DNA from: Desulfurobacterium thermolithotrophum DSM 11699
Lineage (GTDB): Bacteria > Aquificota > Aquificia > Desulfurobacteriales > Desulfurobacteriaceae
DNA length: 64,000 nucleotides
Assembly (NCBI RefSeq): GCF_000191045.1
Contig: NC_015185.1
Span: 1,122,501 to 1,186,500, forward strand
Reading direction: 5' to 3'
Shown here: in pieces, positions 474 through 58,330 of the stretch
Layout of the letters: every line of letters begins with the position of its first letter
How positions within the stretch are numbered: the first letter of the stretch is position 1
Made by a program: the position numbers and the translations under genes
Notes under the pieces: generated by a model
What the model was told of the DNA's origin: nothing
The model's input: only the letters and a program-made list of their open reading frames with translations
Databases searched by the model: none

Positions 474-1775
474 TTAAGGATTCTCTGTGAGAGCTTTTTT
501 AACAATTGCTGTAATGTGAGTTTCTGGACCGTAAACCTCTATTGGAAGACCAAGCTCTTCTGCAGCTTTTTTGATTCTTGCAAGACCAACTTCGTAGTTA
601 GGTCCTCCACGACGTACGTAGATTTTCACTCCAACTTCTTTCATCTTATCAGCATACTCTTTGAAAGCATCAATGATTCCGTCGAATGTCTTAGCAACGT
701 CTGTGAAGTTAGCAATAGCACCACCGATGATGAGGATCTTTGGTCTTCCTTGAGGATCTTTCTTTCTTGTCATAAGGTCGAGAACAGTCTTAACGTACTC
801 TCTTGTTTCAGCCCTTGATGGGTTACCGGAGTATTCACCGTAGTTTGCAAGTTCATTAACGTATCCAAGGTCTGCAACAGTGTCTGCGTAAACTACAGAT
901 GCTCCACCACCAGCAACGAGAGTCCAGATTCTACCTTCTGGGTTAAGAATTGTGAGTTTAAGTGAAGCACCGGACTTTTCGTCCATTTCTTTAATGTACT
1001 TCTCTTCTGGTGTAAGCTCTCCACCAAATCCTGCTGGAAACTCTATCTCACCCCACTTTCTACCAACCAAGAACTGTGCTGTATCGTCAAGTCTTCCTAC
1101 AAAGTCAAGTGGGTAGATTTTATTTCCAACCATAACAAGAGGGTTGATTTCAAGGTATGCAAAGTGCATGTCTTTAAAGAACTTGTAGAGTCTCTTTACA
1201 AAGTCAGCATACTTCTCTTTATCCTTTATTTCTTCAGGTACGTTTTCTTCAATAAGCTTTTCAGCTTCTTCATCTGTTGCGAGAACAGGAATAACAACTT
1301 CTTTTACCTTGTCCCAGTTTTCTTCAACGTCAATTCCACCAAACGCAGACATGAAGATGTGGTCACCATCCTGACCAAGTGTCATAGCAACGTAGTATTC
1401 ATCTTCCTGAGCGTGTGGAACACATGGTTCAATGAGGAAGTGAGTAAGTTTACCTTTCTTTCCTTTTATCTCTACATCTTCTTCCATTTTCTTCTTAATC
1501 CACTCTTTTGCAGCTTCGTAATCAACATCACAAGGCTTTTCTTTCTTAAAGAGGATAAGTCCAAGCTTACCCCTTTTACCAAAGAGCATGTCAGGTTTTG
1601 CAACAAGTGGTAATTCTCTAAGCCATGGATACTCTTCTGGAAGTTTATCTAAGTCTGTTTGTGGCGTTACAAGAACTGATTTAAAGTCGTACTCAAACTC
1701 TGGAGCAAAATACTCGTTCCAGTGCTCTGCAAGGATTCTTTTACCATCGTATTCTCTAATCCCTCTTTGAGCCAT
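474..1775 (-). CDS. aclB: ATP-citrate lyase beta subunit (AclB)
   Basis: The 433-residue product begins MAQRGIREYDGKRILAEHW and is related to the ATP-grasp beta subunit of succinyl-CoA synthetase. The segment AYLEINPLVMV fits the metal/nucleotide-binding ELNPL region, and LVAGGGASVVYADTVADLG and KILIIGGAIANFTDVA match the C-terminal CoA-ligase-type fold. With AclA it forms the ATP-dependent citrate-cleaving enzyme of the reductive TCA cycle in the cytoplasm. I placed the start at the ATG preceded by an AAAGGAGG site. The frame is open about 30 codons further upstream, but that part overlaps the icd-aclB spacer hairpin. It lies downstream of icd and 15 nt upstream of aclA. The same family includes CcsA of two-step citrate cleavers. 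Confidence 0.9.
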   Translation of the reverse strand: MAQRGIREYDGKRILAEHWNEYFAPEFEYDFKSVLVTPQTDLDKLPEEYPWLRELPLVAKPDMLFGKRGKLGLILFKKEKPCDVDYEAAKEWIKKKMEEDVEIKGKKGKLTHFLIEPCVPHAQEDEYYVAMTLGQDGDHIFMSAFGGIDVEENWDKVKEVVIPVLATDEEAEKLIEENVPEEIKDKEKYADFVKRLYKFFKDMHFAYLEINPLVMVGNKIYPLDFVGRLDDTAQFLVGRKWGEIEFPAGFGGELTPEEKYIKEMDEKSGASLKLTILNPEGRIWTLVAGGGASVVYADTVADLGYVNELANYGEYSGNPSRAETREYVKTVLDLMTRKKDPQGRPKILIIGGAIANFTDVAKTFDGIIDAFKEYADKMKEVGVKIYVRRGGPNYEVGLARIKKAAEELGLPIEVYGPETHITAIVKKALTENP

Positions 1776-1830: not shown

Positions 1831-4038
1831 TTAAATGGAGTCGATGATTGAGTTGAGAGTTGCACTTGGTCTCATAGCTGCTTCTGCTTTTGCGTCATCT
1901 GGATGGTAGTATCCACCGATATCCTTTGGAGAACCTTCAGTTGCTCTAATTTCTTCTAAGATCTTTTCCTCGTTCTCAATAAGAGCAGCTGCTACAGGTT
2001 CGAAAATTTTCGCAAGCTCAGCGTCTGTGTCTTGCGCAGCAAGCTCTTCTGCCCAGTAACGTGCAAGCCAGTAGTGGCTACCACGTGTATCAAGCTCTCC
2101 AACTTTTCTCTTTGGAGTCTTGTCGTTGTCAAGGTACTTACCAACAGCCTTAGAGAGAGTATCCGCCATGATGAGGATTCTCTTGTTAGTGCTTCCTGAC
2201 TGCTTGTATGCAAGCTTGAGAGCTTCTACAAATGCAAGGAACTCTCCAAGGCTATCCCATCTGAGGTGTCCTTCTTTTACAAACTGCTGAACATGCTTTG
2301 GAGCTGATCCTCCAGCACCTGTTTCAAAGAGTCCACCACCGGCGATTTCAGGAACAATGGAAAGAGCTCTTGCACTTGTTCCAACTTCAATAATTGGGAA
2401 GAGGTCTGTGAGGTAGTCTCTGAGAACGTTTCCTGTTACGGAAATTGTGTTGAGTCCTTTTCTGAATCTTTCAAGTGTAAACTTCATTGCCTCTCTTGGA
2501 GGCTTGATGTACCACTCAACATCAGAAAGATCGTACTTTTGAAGCTCTTCTTTTACCTTCTCGATAAGCTGTCTATCGTGAGCTCTCATGTGATCAAGCC
2601 AGAATACGATTGGCTCACCGGACTCTTTAGCTCTGTTAACTGCAAGCTTAACCCAGTCGCGAATAGCAATATCCTTTGTTACGCAGCTTCTGTAGATGTC
2701 ACCTTCTTCAACCTCATGTTCCATGAGGACGTTTCCGTCTTCATCAACGATTCTAATAACACCATCTGCCGGTGGGAAAAATGTTTTATCGTGGGAACCG
2801 TACTCTTCAGCTTTCATAGCCATAAGACCAACGTTTGAAACGCTTCCCACCTTTGTTGGATCGAATTGACCGCGTACCTTGATGTCTTCAACGATTTCGC
2901 TGTACATTGTTGCATAAGAACGGTCTGGGATTGTAATTACACAGTCATCTGTCTCTCCGCTTGGTCCCCAGCCCTGGAGTCCATTTTTGATAACAGCAGG
3001 AACAGAAGCATCAACGATAACGTCGTTAGGTCTGTGAAGGTTTGTAATACCGTTATCTGAGTCAACCATGTAAAGACGTGGTTGCTTCTTGTAAATTTCC
3101 TCTATTGTTTTCTTGATTTCTTCTTGCTTTTCTGGTGGAAGCTTAGAAAGTTTGTTTTCAAGGTCAATGAGACCTTTGTTAGGATCAAATCCAATCTCTT
3201 CAAGTTCTTTTCCATGCTTTTCAAAAAGTTCCTTGTAGTAAACCCTGATTGCATCACCAAAGATTGCAGGGTCTGAAACTCTCATCATTGTAGCTTTAAC
3301 GTGAAGGGAAAAGAGAATATCTTTTTCCTTAGCATCATTAATAACTTCTTCAAAGAACTCTTTGAGCTTCTTTCTGCTCATGTAGGTTCCGTCAACGACG
3401 TCACCCATTCCAAGCTCGATCTCTTTGAGAACAGTCACATTTCCTTCTTTATCAACAAACTCATAACGAATCTTTGTATCCTTCTTAAGAGTTACAGATT
3501 TCTCATTCTCGTAGAAATCACCGCTCTTCATGTGAGCAACGTAGCTAAGAGACTTTGGAGAAACATCTCTCATTCTGTGAGGATGTTTCTTGGCATACTC
3601 CTTAACAGGTGGAGCAATACGTCTGTCGGAGTTGCCCTGTCTTAGAACCGGGTTAACTACACTGCCGATACACTTGTCGTACTTTGCTCTGATTTCTTTT
3701 TCTTCCTCGGTTTGAGGGTTCTCCGGAAAGTCTGGAAGATCGTATCCTTGGGACTGGAGCTCCTTAACAGCGTCGATAAGCTGAGGAATAGAAGCAGAAA
3801 TGTTAGGAAGCTTCATAATATTTGCTTCTGGCTTCCAAACGAGCTCACCAAGGTAAGCAAGATCATCCGGAACATATCCAAACTGAGCAAGGATTCTTCC
3901 TGCAAGGGAGATATCTCTAACTTCAATATCTACGTCTGCATGCTTTACAAAGGCTCTCATAATTGGCAGAAGTGAGTAGGTTGCAAGTGCTGGAGCCTCG
4001 TCAACCTTTGTCCAGATAATAGTTGGCTTTTTTGCCAT
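1831..4038 (-). CDS. icd: Monomeric NADP-dependent isocitrate dehydrogenase
   Basis: The 735-residue product starts MAKKPTIIWTKVDEAPALAT, the typical N-terminus of the monomeric (about 740 aa) IDH family. That family is distinct from the roughly 400-aa dimeric enzymes. Family landmarks include VNPVLRQGNSDRRIAPPVK, SYVAHMKSGDFYENEKS, and MVDSDNGITNLHRPNDVIVDAS with the substrate/metal-binding acidic residues. In the reductive direction it would carboxylate 2-oxoglutarate to isocitrate with NADPH. I chose the ATG at 4038 because AGGAGGAT lies just upstream; six further in-frame codons precede it. It sits between acn and aclB on the same strand, so its role in CO2 fixation is supported by context. 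A dimeric IDH elsewhere in the genome cannot be excluded. Confidence 0.93.
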   Translation of the reverse strand: MAKKPTIIWTKVDEAPALATYSLLPIMRAFVKHADVDIEVRDISLAGRILAQFGYVPDDLAYLGELVWKPEANIMKLPNISASIPQLIDAVKELQSQGYDLPDFPENPQTEEEKEIRAKYDKCIGSVVNPVLRQGNSDRRIAPPVKEYAKKHPHRMRDVSPKSLSYVAHMKSGDFYENEKSVTLKKDTKIRYEFVDKEGNVTVLKEIELGMGDVVDGTYMSRKKLKEFFEEVINDAKEKDILFSLHVKATMMRVSDPAIFGDAIRVYYKELFEKHGKELEEIGFDPNKGLIDLENKLSKLPPEKQEEIKKTIEEIYKKQPRLYMVDSDNGITNLHRPNDVIVDASVPAVIKNGLQGWGPSGETDDCVITIPDRSYATMYSEIVEDIKVRGQFDPTKVGSVSNVGLMAMKAEEYGSHDKTFFPPADGVIRIVDEDGNVLMEHEVEEGDIYRSCVTKDIAIRDWVKLAVNRAKESGEPIVFWLDHMRAHDRQLIEKVKEELQKYDLSDVEWYIKPPREAMKFTLERFRKGLNTISVTGNVLRDYLTDLFPIIEVGTSARALSIVPEIAGGGLFETGAGGSAPKHVQQFVKEGHLRWDSLGEFLAFVEALKLAYKQSGSTNKRILIMADTLSKAVGKYLDNDKTPKRKVGELDTRGSHYWLARYWAEELAAQDTDAELAKIFEPVAAALIENEEKILEEIRATEGSPKDIGGYYHPDDAKAEAAMRPSATLNSIIDSI

Positions 4039-4079
4039 ATTTATCCTCCTCCACATTTTGATTTCAATTTCAGGTGAAA

Positions 4080-4099: not shown

Positions 4100-6052
4100 T
4101 TACTGGAGTTTACCTTCGAATTTGTCCTTAACGTATTTGAGAACGCCCCCCGCCTTGATGATCTTGACCTGTCTCTCGTTGAGGCCGTGCTTTGTAGGAA
4201 TTGAAATACCCTTTGTTCTGTTGATTACGGTAATGATGTTGTCTTCTCCTGGAGCAAAGTTTGAAAGATCTATCTCAAGAAGATCTCCTTGGTCAATCTT
4301 GTCGTAGTCTTCAGGGTTAACAAATACAAGTGGAAGAATTCCAAAGTTGATAAGGTTAGCATGGTGGATTCTTGCAAAGGACTTGGCGATTACTGCCTTA
4401 ACTCCAAGATACATTGGACCAATTGCAGCGTGCTCTCTTGAAGAACCCTGTCCGTAGTTTTCACCACCAACGATGAATCCACCACCCTTCTCCTTAGCTC
4501 TTTGAGCAAATGTTTCATCCACAACTGAGTAAACATACTCAGAGATTGCAGGAATGTTTGAACGGAGTGGGAGGATCTTTGCACCACCAGGAATGATGTG
4601 GTCTGTTGTAATGTTATCACCAACTTTGAGGAGAACTTCTCCCTCTACCTTATCTCCAAGAGGCTCCTTATAACCAACATAGTTGATTGTAGGACCTTTG
4701 TAGATTTCAACCTCATCTGGATCAGCAGCTGGAGCATAGATCATTGAGTCGTCAATCTCAAACTTCTCTGGAAGAAATACCTTAATCTCCTCAATTCCAA
4801 GGTCTCTTGGGTCTGTAATAACTCCCTTCATTGCAGTTGCAGCTGCTGTTTCTGGGGAAGCTAAGTAAACTTCTGCATCCTTTGTACCAGAACGGCCGTA
4901 GAAGTTTCTGTTAAATGTTCTAACAGAAACTCCTCCAGATGGTGGAGCAAATCCCATTCCGATACATGGACCACAAGCGTTCTCAAGAATTCTAAATCCA
5001 GCTCTCAGGAATACATCGTAGTAGCCTTCTTTATCCATCATTCTGAGAACTTGCTTTGAACCTGGAGAGATTGCAGCTGAAACAAGCGGATGTACCATCT
5101 TTCCGGTTCTCTTGAACATTTCACCTACAGTCTTGAGGTCTCTGTAGGAAGAGTTTGTACAAGAACCAATTGCAACCTGATGAACTCTTAGACCTTCAAC
5201 TTCTTTAACTTTCTTAACGTTGTCAGGCATGTGTGGGCAAGCGATGAGTGGCTCGAGCTCAGAAAGGTCAATATCAATTACTTCATCGTATGTAGCGTCT
5301 GGGTCAGCCTGTAGTGGTCTCCACTGGGATTCTCTTCCCTGAGCTTTCATGAAGAGGTATGTCTGCTCGTCACTTGGGAAGATAGATGTTGTAGCACCAA
5401 GCTCAGCACCCATATTTGTAATAGTTGCTCTTTCTGGAACTGAAAGGTACTTAACACCCTCTCCACCGTATTCAAAGATCTTTCCAACACCGCCTTTAAC
5501 GGAAAGTCTTCTGAGGAGCTCAAGGATAATGTCCTTAGCTGAAACGAAAGGTCTGAGCTTTCCGTAGAGGTTAACCCTAACAACCTTTGGCATTGTGAGG
5601 TAGAAAGGTTCTCCAGCCATTGCAAGAGCAACGTCCATACCACCTGCACCAATAGCTAAGCTACCGATACCGCCTGCTGTTGGTGTGTGGGAGTCTGAAC
5701 CGAGGAGTGTCTTTCCTGGAACAGCAAATCTTTCAAGGTGAACCTGGTGACAGATACCGTTTCCAGCTTTGCTGAAGAAAACTCCAAACTTTGCAGCAGC
5801 TGTCTGGAGGAAGAGGTGGTCGTTTGCGTTTTCAGGACCACCAGCTTGGAGTGTGTTGTGGTCAACATAAGATACAGAAAGTTCTGTTTGAACTTTTGGA
5901 AGTCCCATAGCTTCAAAATGGAGGTACGCCATTGTTCCTGTGGCATCTTGTGTGAGTGTCTGGTCGATTCTAATTGCTATGGGCTTTCCAGGAGTCATGT
6001 CTCCTTCAACAAGGTGTGTTTTAATAATTTTCTGAACGATGTTTAAGCCCAT
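4100..6052 (-). CDS. acn: Aconitate hydratase
   Basis: The 650-residue enzyme interconverts citrate and isocitrate using a [4Fe-4S] cluster. The cluster ligands are visible as SCTNSS and ACGPCIGMG, and RSGTKDAEVYLASPETAAA follows. The C-terminal swivel domain has GENYGQGSSREHAA with the substrate-binding SSREH motif. Length and sequence fit the short aconitases of about 650 aa rather than the roughly 890-aa AcnA. The ATG at 6052 is preceded by GGAGGAGAG. It is the first gene of the acn-icd-aclB-aclA unit and lies directly downstream of the 11-bp repeat array and TAGTAT box described separately, which probably set expression of the whole cycle segment. Confidence 0.94.
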   Translation of the reverse strand: MGLNIVQKIIKTHLVEGDMTPGKPIAIRIDQTLTQDATGTMAYLHFEAMGLPKVQTELSVSYVDHNTLQAGGPENANDHLFLQTAAAKFGVFFSKAGNGICHQVHLERFAVPGKTLLGSDSHTPTAGGIGSLAIGAGGMDVALAMAGEPFYLTMPKVVRVNLYGKLRPFVSAKDIILELLRRLSVKGGVGKIFEYGGEGVKYLSVPERATITNMGAELGATTSIFPSDEQTYLFMKAQGRESQWRPLQADPDATYDEVIDIDLSELEPLIACPHMPDNVKKVKEVEGLRVHQVAIGSCTNSSYRDLKTVGEMFKRTGKMVHPLVSAAISPGSKQVLRMMDKEGYYDVFLRAGFRILENACGPCIGMGFAPPSGGVSVRTFNRNFYGRSGTKDAEVYLASPETAAATAMKGVITDPRDLGIEEIKVFLPEKFEIDDSMIYAPAADPDEVEIYKGPTINYVGYKEPLGDKVEGEVLLKVGDNITTDHIIPGGAKILPLRSNIPAISEYVYSVVDETFAQRAKEKGGGFIVGGENYGQGSSREHAAIGPMYLGVKAVIAKSFARIHHANLINFGILPLVFVNPEDYDKIDQGDLLEIDLSNFAPGEDNIITVINRTKGISIPTKHGLNERQVKIIKAGGVLKYVKDKFEGKLQ

Positions 6053-6102: not shown

Positions 6103-6108
6103 ATACTA
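6103..6108 (-). promoter_or_regulatory. Candidate -10 box of the acn operon
   Basis: TAGTAT on the minus strand starts 13 nt after the start of the last repeat of the neighbouring array. The nuo promoter has TAGTAT 12 nt after its last repeat. There is no good -35 hexamer, as expected if a bound activator replaces it. A second AT-rich box (TATAAA) lies further downstream and is an alternative. Confidence 0.45.
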
Positions 6109-6114
6109 AACAAC

Positions 6115-6143
6115 GTGTAAAAATTATGTAAAAAATTTGTAAA
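6115..6143 (-). promoter_or_regulatory. Three heptamers at 11-bp period upstream of acn
   Basis: Read toward acn, the sequence contains TTTACAA, TTTACAT and TTTACAC beginning at 6143, 6132 and 6121, an exact 11-bp spacing. Eleven-bp direct repeats are the usual site layout for dimers of OmpR/PhoB-family response regulators. The same heptamer, period, orientation and distance to a TAGTAT box recur upstream of nuoA. The region also lies upstream of the divergent rtcB, but the orientation favours acn. Confidence 0.65.
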
Positions 6144-6170
6144 AATTTCAAGTCAAGCTTGGAGGAAAAA

Positions 6171-7349
6171 GTGGATCCAATTGTAATTGAAGGAAGGATT
6201 CCTATATACGTTTACGCTAAGGAAATTGAATCAGAGGTTAAGGTTCAAATAGAGAGAATAAAAGACCTTCCATTTTTTAAAGACAAAGTTGTCATAATGC
6301 CAGATTGTCATGCAGGAAAGGGATGTGTTATAGGTTTTACAGGTTACTTTAATGAAGTTGTAATTCCAAATATTGTTGGTGTTGATATAGGTTGTGGTGT
6401 TTATACATATCCTTTAGGAATTAAGGTAGATAAAGAAAATCCAAAAGAAGGATTAAATCTTTTAAAATTTGATGCTTTTGTAAAGGGAAAAATTCCTGTA
6501 GGATTAACCTCAAGAACAAAGTCAAATGCCAAGAAGTTACCACTTTCTAAAGATGACAAAGAACTCCTTTCTGAAATCAAATCAGTTCTTATAAATACTT
6601 ACAAAATTGACCTTCAAGAACCTATCCTACAGGTTGGAACACTTGGAAGTGGTAATCACTTTTTGGAACTTGGATACGACACAGAAAGCGGAGAACTCTA
6701 CCTAACTGTTCACTCCGGTTCAAGGAATCTTGGACTTAGGGTTTGCAACCACTTCCAGAGAAAAGCCAAAGAGCACACAAAGAAACGCTATTCCGACATT
6801 CCAGCAGACCTCTCATTCCTTCCACTTAACAAAGGAGGAAGAGAGTATTTACGGGCAATGAAACTTGCTCAAAAATATGCGGATTTAAACAGAAGAATGA
6901 TTTTAAAGCTGATAGTAGAAGAGTTTTTCAAAGAAGAATTTAACGAGAACAAACTCATTAAAAGTGTTCACAACTATATAGACCTTGAAAGGGATATGTG
7001 CGTAAGGAAAGGTGCAATTTCTGCTCATAAAGACGAAAGGGTAGTTATTCCTTTCAATTTAACAACAGGACTAATTATAGGTAGAGGAAAAGGAATTAGA
7101 AAGCTCAACTTTTCCGCACCCCATGGTGCTGGAAGGAAGTTAAGCAGAAGAAAGGCAAAAGAAATGTTCTCTGTTAGTGACTTTAGGAAAGCCGTTGAAG
7201 AGGCTGGGGTATTTTCAACAACTGTTAACAAAGATACACTCGATGAAGCACCATTTGCTTATAAAGACCCTAAGGAAATCTTAGAATTTCTACCAAAAAC
7301 TGTTGAAGTAGAACACTTTATTAAGCCAATGTACAACCTAAAAGGATAA
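6171..7349 (+). CDS. rtcB: RtcB-family RNA-splicing ligase
   Basis: The product (392 aa from the GTG) joins 2',3'-cyclic phosphate or 3'-phosphate RNA ends to 5'-OH ends using GTP and Mn2+. Metal-binding motifs PDCHAGKG, GVDIGCGV and GSGNHFLELG are present. APHGAGRKLSR near the C-terminus holds the histidine that is guanylylated in this family. I placed the start at the GTG at 6171 because GGAGG lies 6162-6165 region just before it. An earlier in-frame TTG at 6159 would overlap that site. It is divergent from acn and followed by a strong terminator, so it is a single-gene unit. tRNA splicing is not expected here, so a repair role for cleaved RNA is the likely function, by inference. Confidence 0.9.
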   Translation: MDPIVIEGRIPIYVYAKEIESEVKVQIERIKDLPFFKDKVVIMPDCHAGKGCVIGFTGYFNEVVIPNIVGVDIGCGVYTYPLGIKVDKENPKEGLNLLKFDAFVKGKIPVGLTSRTKSNAKKLPLSKDDKELLSEIKSVLINTYKIDLQEPILQVGTLGSGNHFLELGYDTESGELYLTVHSGSRNLGLRVCNHFQRKAKEHTKKRYSDIPADLSFLPLNKGGREYLRAMKLAQKYADLNRRMILKLIVEEFFKEEFNENKLIKSVHNYIDLERDMCVRKGAISAHKDERVVIPFNLTTGLIIGRGKGIRKLNFSAPHGAGRKLSRRKAKEMFSVSDFRKAVEEAGVFSTTVNKDTLDEAPFAYKDPKEILEFLPKTVEVEHFIKPMYNLKG

Positions 7350-8505: not shown

Positions 8506-10449
8506 TTAATCAAGTTTCTCAAGAGCTTCAAGAATTAGAAGACCTGCTTCGTTGATGCTGCTTTTTCCAATTAGGTTTGAAGCTCTAAGGACTATGAGCT
8601 CTTTTTCAAAAGTATCTGGATCAAGACCGGAAAGTTTCATAGCCTCTTTGAAGTTCTTTGGAAGAACTCTTACCTTCTTTTCCTTTTCATAAAGGGTACC
8701 TACTTTGCTAAGGGCTTCAAGGACTCTCACTGCAAGAGGTGTAATTGGGTTTGCAAATCCTTCTGGAGTTCCGGAAAGAGCACGTTTGATTAGCTTACCA
8801 GCTTCTGTAAGAACAATTGCTTCATTTTGCAAAATATCTATGTAACCACGAGCTTCAAGCTTATTAAGAGCATACTCAACTTCTTCCTTCCAAGTTTCAT
8901 CAAACTGTTCATAAACATCTTTAATGAAGAAACCTTTTTCTGGAAGTTTGTGAAGAACTTGAAGCTCAAATCTTGTGATGTGTGGAAGTCTTCTAATCTG
9001 GTATGCCATCTCTGCGTACATCTTTCCAGCTTCCGTTGCCTCACCACCACCGATGAGCTGGGCATCAACTCCTTTCTTGTACCAGTCAACGTTTGGAGAT
9101 GCAAACTCTTTATTTGCAATTATGATAGCCTTAACTGCAACGGCTGGAATTTCCCTCATTCCTCTTGTTTCCATATCCTCAAGAACTTTCTTACCGTACT
9201 CTGTCAGGTAGTGGACTCTCTTTCCTTCCTTCTCCTCAGCATGGATTAGGTTGAAAGATTCAAGTGTATAGAGGGACTCTTGGATGATGTCATACATCTT
9301 TTCATACCACTTATTGCCCTTTTCGTAAAAGCTCTTAAAGAGCTCCTCAACTGTCTTAACTTCGGCAAACTTGTTTTTAATCTCTTCCTTCTTCTGATAA
9401 CCCAAGTCCTGATAGAGTCTTCTACCGTAATGTTCAAGGAGATGTTTATACTCTTTGGCAGGTTTGTAGAACATGTAGTGGACAAGCTCATCAACCGTAG
9501 GCATTACACTTGGATCGCTTTCGTGGTGTTTCCATACCTCCTGAATAGCTTTGAGGAGCTCTGCATCGAGAATTTCAATGTTAATAGATTTAACAGGCTT
9601 AAAGCTTCTCTCCTTCCAGATCCTATAAGCCTCAAGTAGGTGCTCGCCAGCCGGAAGGATTTCACCGTCACCATCGATGTAGGCAAGTGCCATAAGGACT
9701 TCTTTCTCTTCGGCTGTAAGGGCTTCAACCCCCTCATCAACAACCTTACCAAGTGAATCCATAATGTCTTCAGAGATTACTGTCTCATAACTTGGAGCAA
9801 GGTATTCGCAGGCTTTCTTAATCTCCTGGCCAAGAGCTGTAAGAGCATAAACGTCAGAAGTTGGAACAGAAAATGCAAGAAGTCTCATAGCTCCCATGAG
9901 AAGAGGGAATCTTCCACCTGCTGGAAGCATTGAGGACTCTGCAGGTCCTGCTGGCATGTCCTTTATGTACTGGTAGAGCTCTCTATCTATTATCAATCTT
10001 GGGTGAGCGTTTCTGAAGATTTCATAGATATCCTTAGCGTACTTGTTAATTGCCTTAAACGTTCCTTTCTTCTCAACTTTTCTCTCTTCAATAAATCCTC
10101 TCTTTTCCAGCTCTCCTTCTGTAAGTGGACCAGGAATGTCCTCGTTTTCGATAGCTGTCTCTATCATCATAATAATTTCGGAGCCAAGCCATCTAAATTC
10201 TTCATTCCACTTTGAAGGGTGTTCTATTAAACCTTTTTGAATCATGTCATCTATTAAATTAGCAAGAGCTCTTCCCCAATATGTAAGAGAATATTCCAAC
10301 GGTCTTTCCATTCTAACTAAGTTCATTCTCTCAAGCTCAATAAATGGTGGTTCTTCAGACTTTGCAAAAAGTTGACAAGTTGGTGCTTTCTTAAGCTCCT
10401 CCTCCCTTATTCTCAAAAGTGCAAGCGCATGTTCTTTCCTAATTACCAT
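8506..10449 (-). CDS. DUF505-like protein with repeated winged-helix-like segments
   Basis: The 647-residue soluble protein resembles the DUF505 family known from Aquificales and some archaea (recognised by eye, not searched). It contains several copies of an LT-x-x-G-x2-hydrophobic pattern, such as LTYWGRALANLID, LTALGQEIKKACEYL, LTEYGKKVLEDME and LTEAGKLIKRAL. In winged-helix proteins this pattern marks the wing and the following helix, so tandem winged-helix units are likely. A DNA- or protein-binding role is inference. The ATG at 10449 follows a GGAGGGA site. It starts a two-gene unit with the downstream 357-aa protein. The IS481-like element is inserted 95 bp upstream and may have separated this gene from formerly neighbouring regulatory DNA. 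Confidence 0.75.
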   Translation of the reverse strand: MVIRKEHALALLRIREEELKKAPTCQLFAKSEEPPFIELERMNLVRMERPLEYSLTYWGRALANLIDDMIQKGLIEHPSKWNEEFRWLGSEIIMMIETAIENEDIPGPLTEGELEKRGFIEERKVEKKGTFKAINKYAKDIYEIFRNAHPRLIIDRELYQYIKDMPAGPAESSMLPAGGRFPLLMGAMRLLAFSVPTSDVYALTALGQEIKKACEYLAPSYETVISEDIMDSLGKVVDEGVEALTAEEKEVLMALAYIDGDGEILPAGEHLLEAYRIWKERSFKPVKSINIEILDAELLKAIQEVWKHHESDPSVMPTVDELVHYMFYKPAKEYKHLLEHYGRRLYQDLGYQKKEEIKNKFAEVKTVEELFKSFYEKGNKWYEKMYDIIQESLYTLESFNLIHAEEKEGKRVHYLTEYGKKVLEDMETRGMREIPAVAVKAIIIANKEFASPNVDWYKKGVDAQLIGGGEATEAGKMYAEMAYQIRRLPHITRFELQVLHKLPEKGFFIKDVYEQFDETWKEEVEYALNKLEARGYIDILQNEAIVLTEAGKLIKRALSGTPEGFANPITPLAVRVLEALSKVGTLYEKEKKVRVLPKNFKEAMKLSGLDPDTFEKELIVLRASNLIGKSSINEAGLLILEALEKLD

Positions 10450-20266: not shown

Positions 20267-20938
20267 ATGAAAATACTTTTAGTGGAAGATGAGAAACTAT
20301 TGGCAAATACTTTAAAGAAAGGTTTAGAAGAAGAAGGATATATTGTGGATGTAGCATACGATGGAGAAGAAGGTTTTTTCTTAGGTAGATGTTATGGTTA
20401 CGATGTTATTATCTTAGATGTGATGCTTCCTAAGTTAGATGGAATGGAGCTCTTGTTAAAATTGAGAGAAGAGGGAGTTAAAACTCCCATTTTAATGCTA
20501 ACAGCAAAAGATTCTGTAGAAGATAAAGTAAAAGGTTTAGATAGTGGAGCTGACGATTATCTAACAAAACCTTTTTCTTATGATGAACTTCTTGCACGGA
20601 TAAGAGCTCTACTTCGGAGAAAATCTGAATCCAAAACTTCATTCATCAAAATAAAAGACTTAGAAATCGATTTAAACAAAAAGATTGTAAAAAGAGCTGG
20701 AAATGAAATAAAACTTACAAAGAAAGAATTTAAAGCTTTAACATTACTTGCTTTAAATAAAAACAGAGTAATTAGTAAAGAATTTCTTATAGATAGTCTC
20801 TACTCTACAGATAGATTTGTAAGTATTAATGCTATAGAAGTTTTAATCAATAGATTAAGAAAGAAAATAGATAAAGACTATCCTCTAAAGCTAATACATA
20901 CTATTAAAGGATTTGGATATATGATAAAAGATGATTAA
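20267..20938 (+). CDS. OmpR/PhoB-family response regulator
   Basis: The 223-residue protein has a receiver domain with acidic pocket VEDEK, phosphoacceptor Asp51 in ILDVMLP, TAKDS and the KPF lysine. A C-terminal winged-helix DNA-binding domain (LTKKEFKALTLLALNKNRVIS, IHTIKGFGYMIKDD) follows. It overlaps the sensor kinase gene by 8 bp and heads the efflux operon. It probably controls that operon in response to an envelope or metal signal, like CusR/CopR. Its likely operator is the TGTAAGG direct repeat at 22333-22350. It is not linked to pst, so I do not call it PhoB. Confidence 0.9.
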   Translation: MKILLVEDEKLLANTLKKGLEEEGYIVDVAYDGEEGFFLGRCYGYDVIILDVMLPKLDGMELLLKLREEGVKTPILMLTAKDSVEDKVKGLDSGADDYLTKPFSYDELLARIRALLRRKSESKTSFIKIKDLEIDLNKKIVKRAGNEIKLTKKEFKALTLLALNKNRVISKEFLIDSLYSTDRFVSINAIEVLINRLRKKIDKDYPLKLIHTIKGFGYMIKDD

Positions 20939-56102: not shown

Positions 56103-56153
56103 TTTACAAAATATTTACAAAATATTTACAAAATATTTACAAGTTATTTACAA
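56103..56153 (+). promoter_or_regulatory. Five TTTACAA heptamers at exact 11-bp period upstream of nuoA
   Basis: TTTACAA begins at 56103, 56114, 56125, 56136 and 56147. The first three units are identical over the full 11 bp (TTTACAAAATA). All lie on one face of the helix, directly upstream of a TAGTAT box. This matches tandem sites for OmpR/PhoB-type regulators and the shorter array in front of acn. Confidence 0.75.
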
Positions 56154-56158
56154 TTTGT

Positions 56159-56167
56159 TAGTATAGA
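56159..56167 (+). promoter_or_regulatory. Candidate -10 region of the nuo operon
   Basis: TAGTAT (56159-56164), overlapping TATAGA (56162-56167), starts 12 nt after the start of the last TTTACAA. Initiation near 56174 would give a 25-nt leader containing the AAGGAG site. The downstream TATAAA (56179) is too close to the ribosome-binding site to be the -10. Confidence 0.45.
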
Positions 56168-56198
56168 CGAATTAAATGTATAAAATAAGGAGATGAAA

Positions 56199-56534
56199 AT
56201 GCTTTATGACTTTGTAATCTTTGTAATAGTTATGACAATAGCAGGAATTTCTCTATGGCTTCTTTCTATTGTTACTTCTCCGAAGAATCCTCATCCTGTA
56301 AAAGAAGATACTTATGAATGTGGCCTTCCTGCTCCTGAACCAATAATCTCTAGTGTTAATTTTCAGTATTACTTTTATGCAATCATTTTCATTGCAATGG
56401 ACATCGCAGGTGTTCTTTTCGTTCTCTATGCAATAGGAAAAGGAAATCCTTCATTTGGATGGATATTCATCCTCTTTTCATTTCTTCTAATGATTCCTCT
56501 TTCATACGTTATGCTTGGAGGAAGAAAAGAATGA
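56199..56534 (+). CDS. nuoA: NADH-quinone oxidoreductase subunit A
   Basis: The 111-residue three-helix membrane subunit has NPHPVKEDTYECGLPAP on its conserved loop. I use the second of two near ATGs (56199), because AAGGAG directly abuts the first one at 56193. It starts nuoABCDHIJKL and overlaps nuoB by 4 bp. The operon is preceded by the 11-bp repeat array. Confidence 0.93.
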   Translation: MLYDFVIFVIVMTIAGISLWLLSIVTSPKNPHPVKEDTYECGLPAPEPIISSVNFQYYFYAIIFIAMDIAGVLFVLYAIGKGNPSFGWIFILFSFLLMIPLSYVMLGGRKE

Positions 56535-57001
56535 TTTTAAAGTTTTTAGATTGGTCTAGAGCTAACTCTCCATGGGGAGTTCATTTTTGTAGTGGTTGCT
56601 GTTCCTTAGAAGTTTTAGCTCTTATGGGACCTCGTTTTGATTGGGAACGGTACGGTTTTATGATGACTCCAAGTCCCAGACAAGCTGACTTCATAATTGT
56701 CACGGGCCTTGTTTCAAAGAAGGTTCTTCCAGTTCTTCTAAGGGTTTACCAACAAATGCCGGAACCAAGATATGTTTTTGGAATGGGAGCTTGTGCTGGA
56801 GGTGGAGGACCATACTGGGATTCAGACTTTGTGGCAGTTGATGTTTCCCAATATATTCCTTTTGACATTTTTGTTACAGGTTGTCCTCCAAATCCAGAAG
56901 CTACTCTTGAAGGACTTCTTAAGTTAAAAGAAATAATACTCAAAAATAAAAACAATGCTGCAAAGAAATATCCAAACAAAATGGAAGAAATTAATTATTA
57001 A
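56531..57001 (+). CDS. nuoB: NADH-quinone oxidoreductase subunit B
   Basis: The 156-residue peripheral subunit carries the N2 [4Fe-4S] cluster, with cysteines in CSGCCSLE, GACAGGG and TGCPPNPE. The N2 cluster passes electrons to quinone. The start ATG overlaps the nuoA stop. Its TAA is followed by ACTATAGGAG, the original Shine-Dalgarno region of nuoC, now split by IS110 copy B. Confidence 0.95.
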   Translation: MILKFLDWSRANSPWGVHFCSGCCSLEVLALMGPRFDWERYGFMMTPSPRQADFIIVTGLVSKKVLPVLLRVYQQMPEPRYVFGMGACAGGGGPYWDSDFVAVDVSQYIPFDIFVTGCPPNPEATLEGLLKLKEIILKNKNNAAKKYPNKMEEINY

Positions 57002-57030
57002 CTATAGGAGATGATATAAAAGATGTCACC

Positions 57031-57205
57031 CCCTGAAATTCGGGACTATAGTAAAGAGGCAACCTTTAAAGGCAGGAGGCTGGATTTTTCCCTGGGGAAT
57101 AAGCCCCGTGCGTGGAGATTAGCCGATGCCTCCTGCCGGCTAATTATAGTGGCGGGAAGCGCCGTATTGGAGTATGGGAATAGTTCCGAAGCAGAGGTTG
57201 CAAAA
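57031..57205 (+). ncRNA. Candidate bridge RNA of IS110 copy B
   Basis: Same fold as in copy A: long-range GCAACCT/AGGTTGC stem, perfect 10-bp GGCAGGAGGC/GCCTCCTGCC stem and GGCG/CGCC hairpin. The one change I found (C to T at 57185) replaces a G-C pair by G-U in the last GGG/CCC hairpin and so preserves pairing. The inferred guide regions are unchanged. Confidence 0.7.
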
Positions 57206-57229
57206 CACAAAACATATCAGGGGGTAGAG

Positions 57230-58330
57230 ATGAAGGAGAAGGTAGAGAAAACACTGTATGTCGGAGTGGACTACCACAAAAACAGCTTTACAGCAGCTTA
57301 TTTAGATTGTCTGACAGGGATACTTAATACCAAGAAGTACGAAGCAGAAGAGTTAGAGAAATTTAAAAATCACCTAACAACTTTTAGGAAAAAAGGATAT
57401 TCAGTAAAAGTTGCGGTAGAAACCTTAACAGGAGTAACATTTTTTACGGAGGAGATAAGGAACTGCGTTGATGAAATAACTTACGTTAACACTAACAAAT
57501 TTAAGAACATTCTAAAAGGTGTTAACAGTGCTAAAAACGACAGGATAGATGCAGAAACGATAGCCATTTACTATGAAATGGGCTTACTTCCGACAGTTTA
57601 CGTCCCGACGAGAAAAGAAAAAGAGCTAAGGATAAAGATGAAAGAGAGAGATAGCTTTGTAGATATGAGAAAAGGGGTAATTAACAGACTTCATAGCCTA
57701 TTGCTTGAATATGGGATAAAGACAAACAAGAGAGAACTCACCACGAAGAAAGGGATGGAAAGGATAAAGGAAGAAACGAAGAAGAAAGTGCCTCCGTCAT
57801 TACGAGAAACGATATGGAGGCAAATAGAAACAATAGAATACTTAACAGATAAGATAAGAGAGACAGAAGAAGATATCAAGAGTTTTATAGGAGAAGATGA
57901 GGAGCTTAAGGGAAAAGTAGAACTTCTAAAAAGCATACCTGGAGTAGGAGATATAGTAGCTATAGCCTTTATATCTGCCGTATGTAACGAAGAGAGGTTT
58001 GAAAACGGAGACAAGGTAGCGGCTTATTTTGGACTTGTTCCTCGTGTTAATAGCAGTGGAGACGAAGTTAGAAATGGAAGGATAACAAAGAAAGGGGACA
58101 GCAGAACGAGGAACAAGATTATCCAGGCTACGAGAGCGTTATTGAACAGCAAGTTAGACAATTCAGTTAAAAGATTTTACGAAGGGTTAGTTAAGAAAGG
58201 TTTAGAGAAGAAGAAAGCGCTGATAGCTGCGGCGAGGAAATTGGTTAAAGTAATGTTCGCAGTTTTGAGAGAGAGAAGGCAATTTATGGATTTTGTTGAA
58301 AATAAATGCAACCTCTGTGTTGGGGGTTGA
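57230..58330 (+). CDS. IS110-family transposase (RuvC-like DEDD type), copy B
   Basis: The 366-residue protein is the same as copy A except for Asp instead of Asn after SSG near the putative catalytic serine. All DEDD residues and the Tnp_20 domain are intact, so it may be active. The start is the ATG after AGGGGG; upstream in-frame sequence is the structured RNA. It ends 21 nt before the nuoC ATG. Confidence 0.92.
   Translation: MKEKVEKTLYVGVDYHKNSFTAAYLDCLTGILNTKKYEAEELEKFKNHLTTFRKKGYSVKVAVETLTGVTFFTEEIRNCVDEITYVNTNKFKNILKGVNSAKNDRIDAETIAIYYEMGLLPTVYVPTRKEKELRIKMKERDSFVDMRKGVINRLHSLLLEYGIKTNKRELTTKKGMERIKEETKKKVPPSLRETIWRQIETIEYLTDKIRETEEDIKSFIGEDEELKGKVELLKSIPGVGDIVAIAFISAVCNEERFENGDKVAAYFGLVPRVNSSGDEVRNGRITKKGDSRTRNKIIQATRALLNSKLDNSVKRFYEGLVKKGLEKKKALIAAARKLVKVMFAVLRERRQFMDFVENKCNLCVGG

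Follow-up and report, generated by a model that had tools for sequence, protein, structure and literature searches.

Upstream of nuoA in Desulfurobacterium thermolithotrophum DSM 11699, the heptamer TTTACAA is repeated at 11-bp intervals, and a shorter row of the same kind precedes acn, a gene of the reductive TCA cycle. This raises the question of whether CO2 fixation and electron input are controlled together through one operator and, if so, by which protein. Among the routes of CO2 fixation at hydrothermal vents, the reductive TCA cycle has a central place, and no transcription factor or operator of this cycle was found described in the open-access literature searched. D. thermolithotrophum BSA is an obligately chemolithoautotrophic, sulfur-reducing anaerobe, with no microaerophilic growth (PMC3368423). 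Constitutive expression of the cycle could be expected in an obligate autotroph; the arrays suggest instead that some of its steps are regulated, perhaps in opposite directions, and the presence of the same repeat row at CO2-fixation and electron-transfer promoters in a group of thermophilic, CO2-dependent vent bacteria points to one shared candidate master regulator.

Repeat arrays at the nuo and acn promoters

We examined both promoters in the window, that is, the whole stretch of 64,000 nucleotides analysed here (Table 1). The units upstream of nuoA, where the sequence reads GACTTTACAAAATATTTACAAAATATTTACAAAATATTTACAAGTTATTTACAATTTGTTAGTATAG, start at 56103, 56114, 56125, 56136 and 56147 on the plus strand, and those upstream of acn at 6143, 6132 and 6121 on the minus strand, so the five TTTACAA and the three TTTACA units of the original prediction are found with the coordinates and the exact 11-bp spacing it gave. 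A TAGTAT box following the start of the last unit by 12-13 bp had also been predicted for both promoters and is present (nuo, 12 bp; acn, 13 bp). However, the accompanying claim that a -35 box is absent was wrong and is ruled out by counting the spacer: the penultimate unit (TTTACA, which differs from TTGACA at a single position) is in a -35-like position, with a spacer to TAGTAT of 17 bp at nuo and of 18 bp at acn (unit at 6132-6127). The exact 11 bp between units, in the genome of the window (G000) and in relatives, fits the tandem direct repeats of about one helical turn (10-11 bp) in OmpR/PhoB-family operators, and the distances of the penultimate (17-18 bp) and the last (12-13 bp) unit from the -10 at nuo and acn fit the placement of such operators at the -35 and upstream of the -10 of activated promoters.

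The identities of nuoA, nuoB, acn, idh and acl are backed by HMM matches. The order of acl, idh and acn is that of Thermovibrio ammonificans, of the same family, in which the three genes have been described as a single operon (PMC5441870). The acn array is shared with a divergent RtcB-like gene, relative to which it lies in reverse orientation. Near acn, the window also encodes a 647-residue protein with a full-length DUF505 match (8506-10449). Inside the nuo operon, an IS110-family transposase ORF (57023-58330) is located between nuoB and nuoC. An Rfam scan of the window gave no match.

Table 1. Positions of the arrays, promoter elements and genes discussed (window coordinates unless stated otherwise)
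Feature	Position	Strand	Basis and remarks
aclB, ATP-citrate lyase subunit	474..1775	-	Pfam PF16114 + PF24948 on frame 474-1865; start ATG read at 1775
idh, monomeric NADP-dependent isocitrate dehydrogenase	1831..4056	-	TIGR00178, above cut-off
acn, aconitate hydratase	4100..6052	-	NCBIfam NF005558, above cut-off
-10-like TAGTAT, acn promoter	6103..6108	-	sequence; 13 bp from start of last unit
Three-unit TTTACA array, 11-bp period	6116..6143	-	sequence; forward site upstream of acn, kept at acn in 10 genomes
RtcB-like gene, divergent, sharing the acn array	6159..7349	+	NCBIfam match under cut-off; neighbour kept in 6 genomes
RR3, response regulator	20267-20938		heavy-metal type, beside efflux pump
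Five-unit TTTACA array, 11-bp period	56103..56152	+	sequence; forward site upstream of nuoA, kept at nuoA in 17 genomes
Penultimate nuo unit TTTACA	56136..56141	+	sequence; -35 position, 17-bp spacer to TAGTAT
-10-like TAGTAT, nuo promoter	56159..56164	+	sequence; 12 bp from start of last unit, same offset at most nuoA orthologues
nuoA	56193..56534	+	Pfam PF00507, E 1.1e-13
nuoB	56459..57001	+	NCBIfam NF005012, above cut-off
RR1, orphan PhoB-like response regulator	G000:C1:727405-728076		outside the window; no adjacent kinase

Specificity and conservation of the arrays

The complete genome (1,541,968 bases, one contig) was covered by pattern searches and by reading chosen stretches. The exact triple TTTACA array occurs in these 1.54 Mb only at the nuo and acn promoters, and a reversed control pattern gave no match genome-wide, even with 2 mismatches permitted. 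Within the window, the three-unit pattern with at most 3 mismatches gave 8 matches, compared to a mean of 0.39 and a maximum of 2 in 100 dinucleotide-preserving shuffles. Such repeats are not common at random intergenic sites of this genome, and the shuffles and the reversed-pattern controls rule out a chance origin. The looser form TTWACA adds arrays at sucC (165117), at a divergent frd/sdh flavoprotein pair (447904) and at an NfnA/NfnB-like operon (707932), and a weaker, Pho-like array lies at the locus of RR2, another response regulator (977655). The remaining two-mismatch match, at 842032, is at the background level, the control likewise giving 2.

The arrays recur at orthologous promoters in related genomes. 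The 24 genomes of the order gave 106 pattern matches, compared to 3 for the reversed pattern, and 17 class-mate genomes gave 8 compared to 0. When the search was widened, the TTTACA form was found in 23/24 genomes of the order and in 11/112 other genomes of the class, with a control match in 3 of these 112. We read five of the matching loci from outside the order; four fall within coding sequence, and the remaining one (L235, G093:C101) is on a contig of an f3 MAG that is near-identical to the locus of RR1 and argF in G023, a member of the order, and was probably misbinned. Two class-mate matches, both in family f4 (L082 and L085, around position 1501), read CTTAACA with an 11-bp period upstream of PhoX-like genes and are likely the Pho boxes of this class. 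A pattern derived from the sucC site was found in 17/24 genomes of the order, with 0 control matches. Hence, the recurrence at orthologous promoters in 23 of the 24 genomes, together with the near absence elsewhere in the class, supports a shared regulon.

Genes that carry the arrays

We then read the arrays in about 85 genome stretches. Of 90 arrays after merging, 80 belong to a small set of genes for central carbon metabolism, electron transfer and regulators, and at least 5 of the other ten are at nuoA, idh, gltD-like or RR1 loci. The most frequent targets are nuoA (17 genomes, including that of the window and G002), sucC (15), acn (10) and aclB (9), followed by frdA (6), nfnA (5), mdh (3) and extra copies of nuoA (3); idh at close range and the NiFe hydrogenase small subunit (both in G022) and acs (in G016) were each found in a single genome. 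The arrays are thus a real, conserved and specific promoter element, and these sequence comparisons strongly support a common regulon that unites reductive-TCA with electron-input genes in the order of Desulfurobacterium. The proposal that nuo and reductive-TCA genes form one regulon therefore gains from a box that links both across the order, and the set is larger than first proposed, comprising nuo, acn-idh-acl, sucC, frd, nfn, mdh and hydrogenase genes. Phosphate-acquisition genes are not the main sites: TTTACA arrays lie at reductive-TCA, nuo and nfn genes, and pst- or PhoX-type loci carry only weaker TTAACA-type arrays.

Two orientations relative to the promoter

The arrays fall into two geometries. 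In the forward sites (nuoA, acn and a gltD-like gene), the units are directed toward the gene. At nuoA in most genomes, the last unit begins 12 bp ahead of the -10 (TAATAT, TAAAAT, TAGAAT or TAGTAT), which places the units near -24, -35, -46 and onward. The -10 of acn is 13 bp away in the genome of the window and is weak or unclear in several others. In the reverse sites (sucC, aclB, nfnA, frdA and mdh, plus idh in G022), the sequence in the direction of the gene is TGTWAAA-N4-TGTWAAA-N4-TGTTAAAAT or near it. All sucC sites have TAAAAT; the distance from the end of the array to the sucC start codon is 32-34 bp in 14/15 genomes and 47 bp in G022, and the only conserved elements at sucC are the array, the TAAAAT inside the array edge and the ribosome-binding site. 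Since TG-N-TAAAAT is similar to an extended -10, the reverse array appears to cover the core promoter.

In relatives, the region upstream of aclB holds a reverse array with a -10-like TAAAAT, preceded by the idh stop codon and followed by a GGGGGG...CCCCCC-TTTTT hairpin; the genome of the window has retained the hairpin, but not the array. With the array placed just before it, the hairpin may both end the idh transcripts and form the beginning of the acl transcript. In the window, the G-rich/C-rich hairpin with its T run occupies the idh-aclB gap (1776-1830), and a hairpin upstream of aclB is also present at loci L097, L102, L105, L109, L155, L160 and L166.

From this geometry, we infer opposite signs of regulation. 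The forward sites fit activation, as they would cover the -35 and leave the -10 free, with the penultimate unit at -35 and the last one 12-13 bp before the -10, like at a PhoP- or PhoB-activated promoter. The reverse sites (sucC, aclB, nfnA, frdA, mdh) fit repression, as the array would lie over the core promoter with its last unit reaching into the -10 TAAAAT, and a protein bound there should block RNA polymerase. Taken together, the two geometries suggest that the same protein would act as an activator at nuo and acn and as a repressor at sucC, aclB, nfn and frd. The original prediction of one dedicated activator is consequently supported in part, by the geometry of the forward sites, and made doubtful by the reverse arrays over the -10, which have the geometry of repressor sites. 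It could be argued that one activator does act at every site and that the reverse sites activate from a different position, given that all targets belong to one pathway and that the forward sites have an activator geometry. However, sucC retains no conserved element other than the array with TAAAAT in its edge and the ribosome-binding site, and the 32-34 bp between its array and the start codon leave scant room for a downstream promoter, so that we consider activation at every site unlikely.

Candidate regulators

The genome of the window encodes three OmpR-family regulators (RR1, RR2 and RR3). The type and the neighbourhood of RR3 (Table 1) led us to set it aside as the reader of the boxes. 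RR2, whose neighbours encode a sensor kinase, a porin and PstS-like proteins, is likely the true PhoB. The best model for RR1 is PhoB (TIGR02154), but its score of 248.3 bits is below the cut-off of 296.2. Orthologues of RR1 with 53-91% identity are present in 20/22 genomes of family f1 and in G023, which belongs to a sister family, that is, in 21/24 genomes of the order, and other regulators have at most 48% identity to RR1. These 21 copies correspond to one change on the tree, the clade having modest support (78/64), and all f1 copies share the same recognition-helix region, TRT[VL]DVYISRLRKKLG. The closest named matches of RR1 are in Desulfurobacterium and Desulfurobacteriaceae MAGs, and no match above 47% was found in named genomes outside the family.

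In G023, an array lies immediately upstream of RR1. Against RR1 as the reader, its own promoter carries no array in the genome of the window. Seven genomes have a second, RR1-related regulator (RR4, helix DVYI[HY]RLR) with a reverse array that stops 1-10 bp short of the RR4 start codon and with a porin gene opposite (loci L157:1872-5000, L098, L104, L114, L139, L143 and L149). In G004 (L157), next after the porin that faces RR4 come genes for an acetate uptake transporter and an acetyl-CoA synthetase-like protein, which suggests that the RR4 locus is a box-controlled acetate module. The arrays at the RR1 (G023) and RR4 genes, together with the distribution and the helix of RR1, single out regulators of the RR1/RR4 type as the strongest candidates for reading the box.

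A different reader within the same family would be RR2, if the arrays were ordinary Pho boxes and if carbon fixation and nuo belonged to the phosphate-starvation response. TTAACA-type 11-bp arrays, which differ from the carbon-fixation boxes mainly in one base, do occur at the RR2/pst-type locus and at the f4 PhoX-like genes, and nuoA follows pstB in relatives. Nevertheless, the core is TTTACA rather than CTTAACA, the carbon genes of the f4 genomes lack TTTACA arrays even though RR2-like regulators and Pho-type boxes are present there, and G001 (89% complete) has four arrays with RR1 as the sole OmpR-family regulator found. We therefore regard control by RR2 as rather improbable.

The distribution of RR1 has exceptions. 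Neither G020 (87% complete) nor G011 (62% complete and without arrays) yielded a copy. In G022 (95% complete), where sucC, idh, mdh and hydrogenase each have a good array, four in all, a search for OmpR-family proteins detected none. The end of a contig at argF was ruled out as the cause, as argB follows argF there without RR1 and without a contig break; the absence of RR1 is thus real, or the gap lies elsewhere, and either RR1 falls in an assembly gap or another protein reads the box in G022. The repeats fit the predicted OmpR/PhoB-family site type, but the step from site to regulator is weakened by this genome. The arrays of G022 would be explained if the reader of the box came from a different protein family with tandem direct repeats as its sites, such as a BldC-type MerR-like protein, BldC being known to bind head-to-tail direct repeats of variable number (PMC5859096). 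This seems slightly less probable again than control by RR2, given the 11-bp period and TTWACA core as opposed to the 9-bp AATTXXXX(C) repeat of BldC, and the arrays at two related OmpR-family regulator genes, RR1 (G023) and RR4 (the seven genomes given above). That the phased repeats are simply a curved or UP-like promoter element with no regulator is very hard to maintain, for although the AT-richness, helical phasing and promoter location of the sites would suit it, a reversed pattern of equal composition gave 3 matches compared to 106, and the sites are limited to one metabolic gene set with strict orientation classes.

In summary, we favour as probable the reading that the tandem 11-bp TTWACA direct repeats are predicted sites of one OmpR/PhoB-type response regulator, most likely RR1. 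In the order of Desulfurobacterium, this regulator would control the reductive TCA cycle together with the supply of electrons to it, activating from forward sites and repressing from reverse sites. More tentatively, RR1 might be a master regulator of the cycle that is specific to this order, an orphan PhoB-like protein that receives its phosphate from a remote kinase or from a metabolite such as acetyl phosphate and that activates nuo/acn and represses sucC/aclB/nfnA/frd according to box orientation, and a paralogue with a similar recognition helix (RR4) might run acetate uptake and activation. The open-access literature searched gave no description of this regulon or of its split by orientation. 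The outcome is a testable cis-element, a target list spanning eight genera and one candidate regulator.

Comparison with known systems

The Pho boxes of Bacillus subtilis PhoP consist of TT(A/T/C)ACA-like repeats with a period of about 11 bp and a core from about -20 to -60, and some PhoP sites, placed on the opposite strand across the core promoter, are repressive. The arrays described here are similar in the repeat core, in the 11-bp period, in having several units and in their position at and upstream of -35; unlike in B. subtilis, the targets are reductive-TCA and electron-transfer genes rather than phosphate genes, and the candidate regulator is an orphan. In the case of Escherichia coli PhoB, the Pho box is 22 bp long and made of two 11-bp repeats. 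The likeness lies in 11-bp direct repeats that replace the -35 and in the PhoB model (TIGR02154) being the one on which RR1 scores best, whereas the core sequence differs, three to five units are present here and the score of RR1 is under the PhoB cut-off. The CTTAACA arrays at PhoX-like genes of the Aquificaceae-type genomes (L082 and L085) are 11-bp TTAACA-type arrays of the same class, but with phosphate-type targets rather than nuo or TCA genes. BldC also resembles the system proposed here in that it binds cooperatively to direct repeats in variable number and in either orientation (PMC5859096); its operator differs in period and core, as described above, and no link between BldC and these genes was found. 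The site type is thus one that is already known, that of PhoP/PhoB-like direct repeats.
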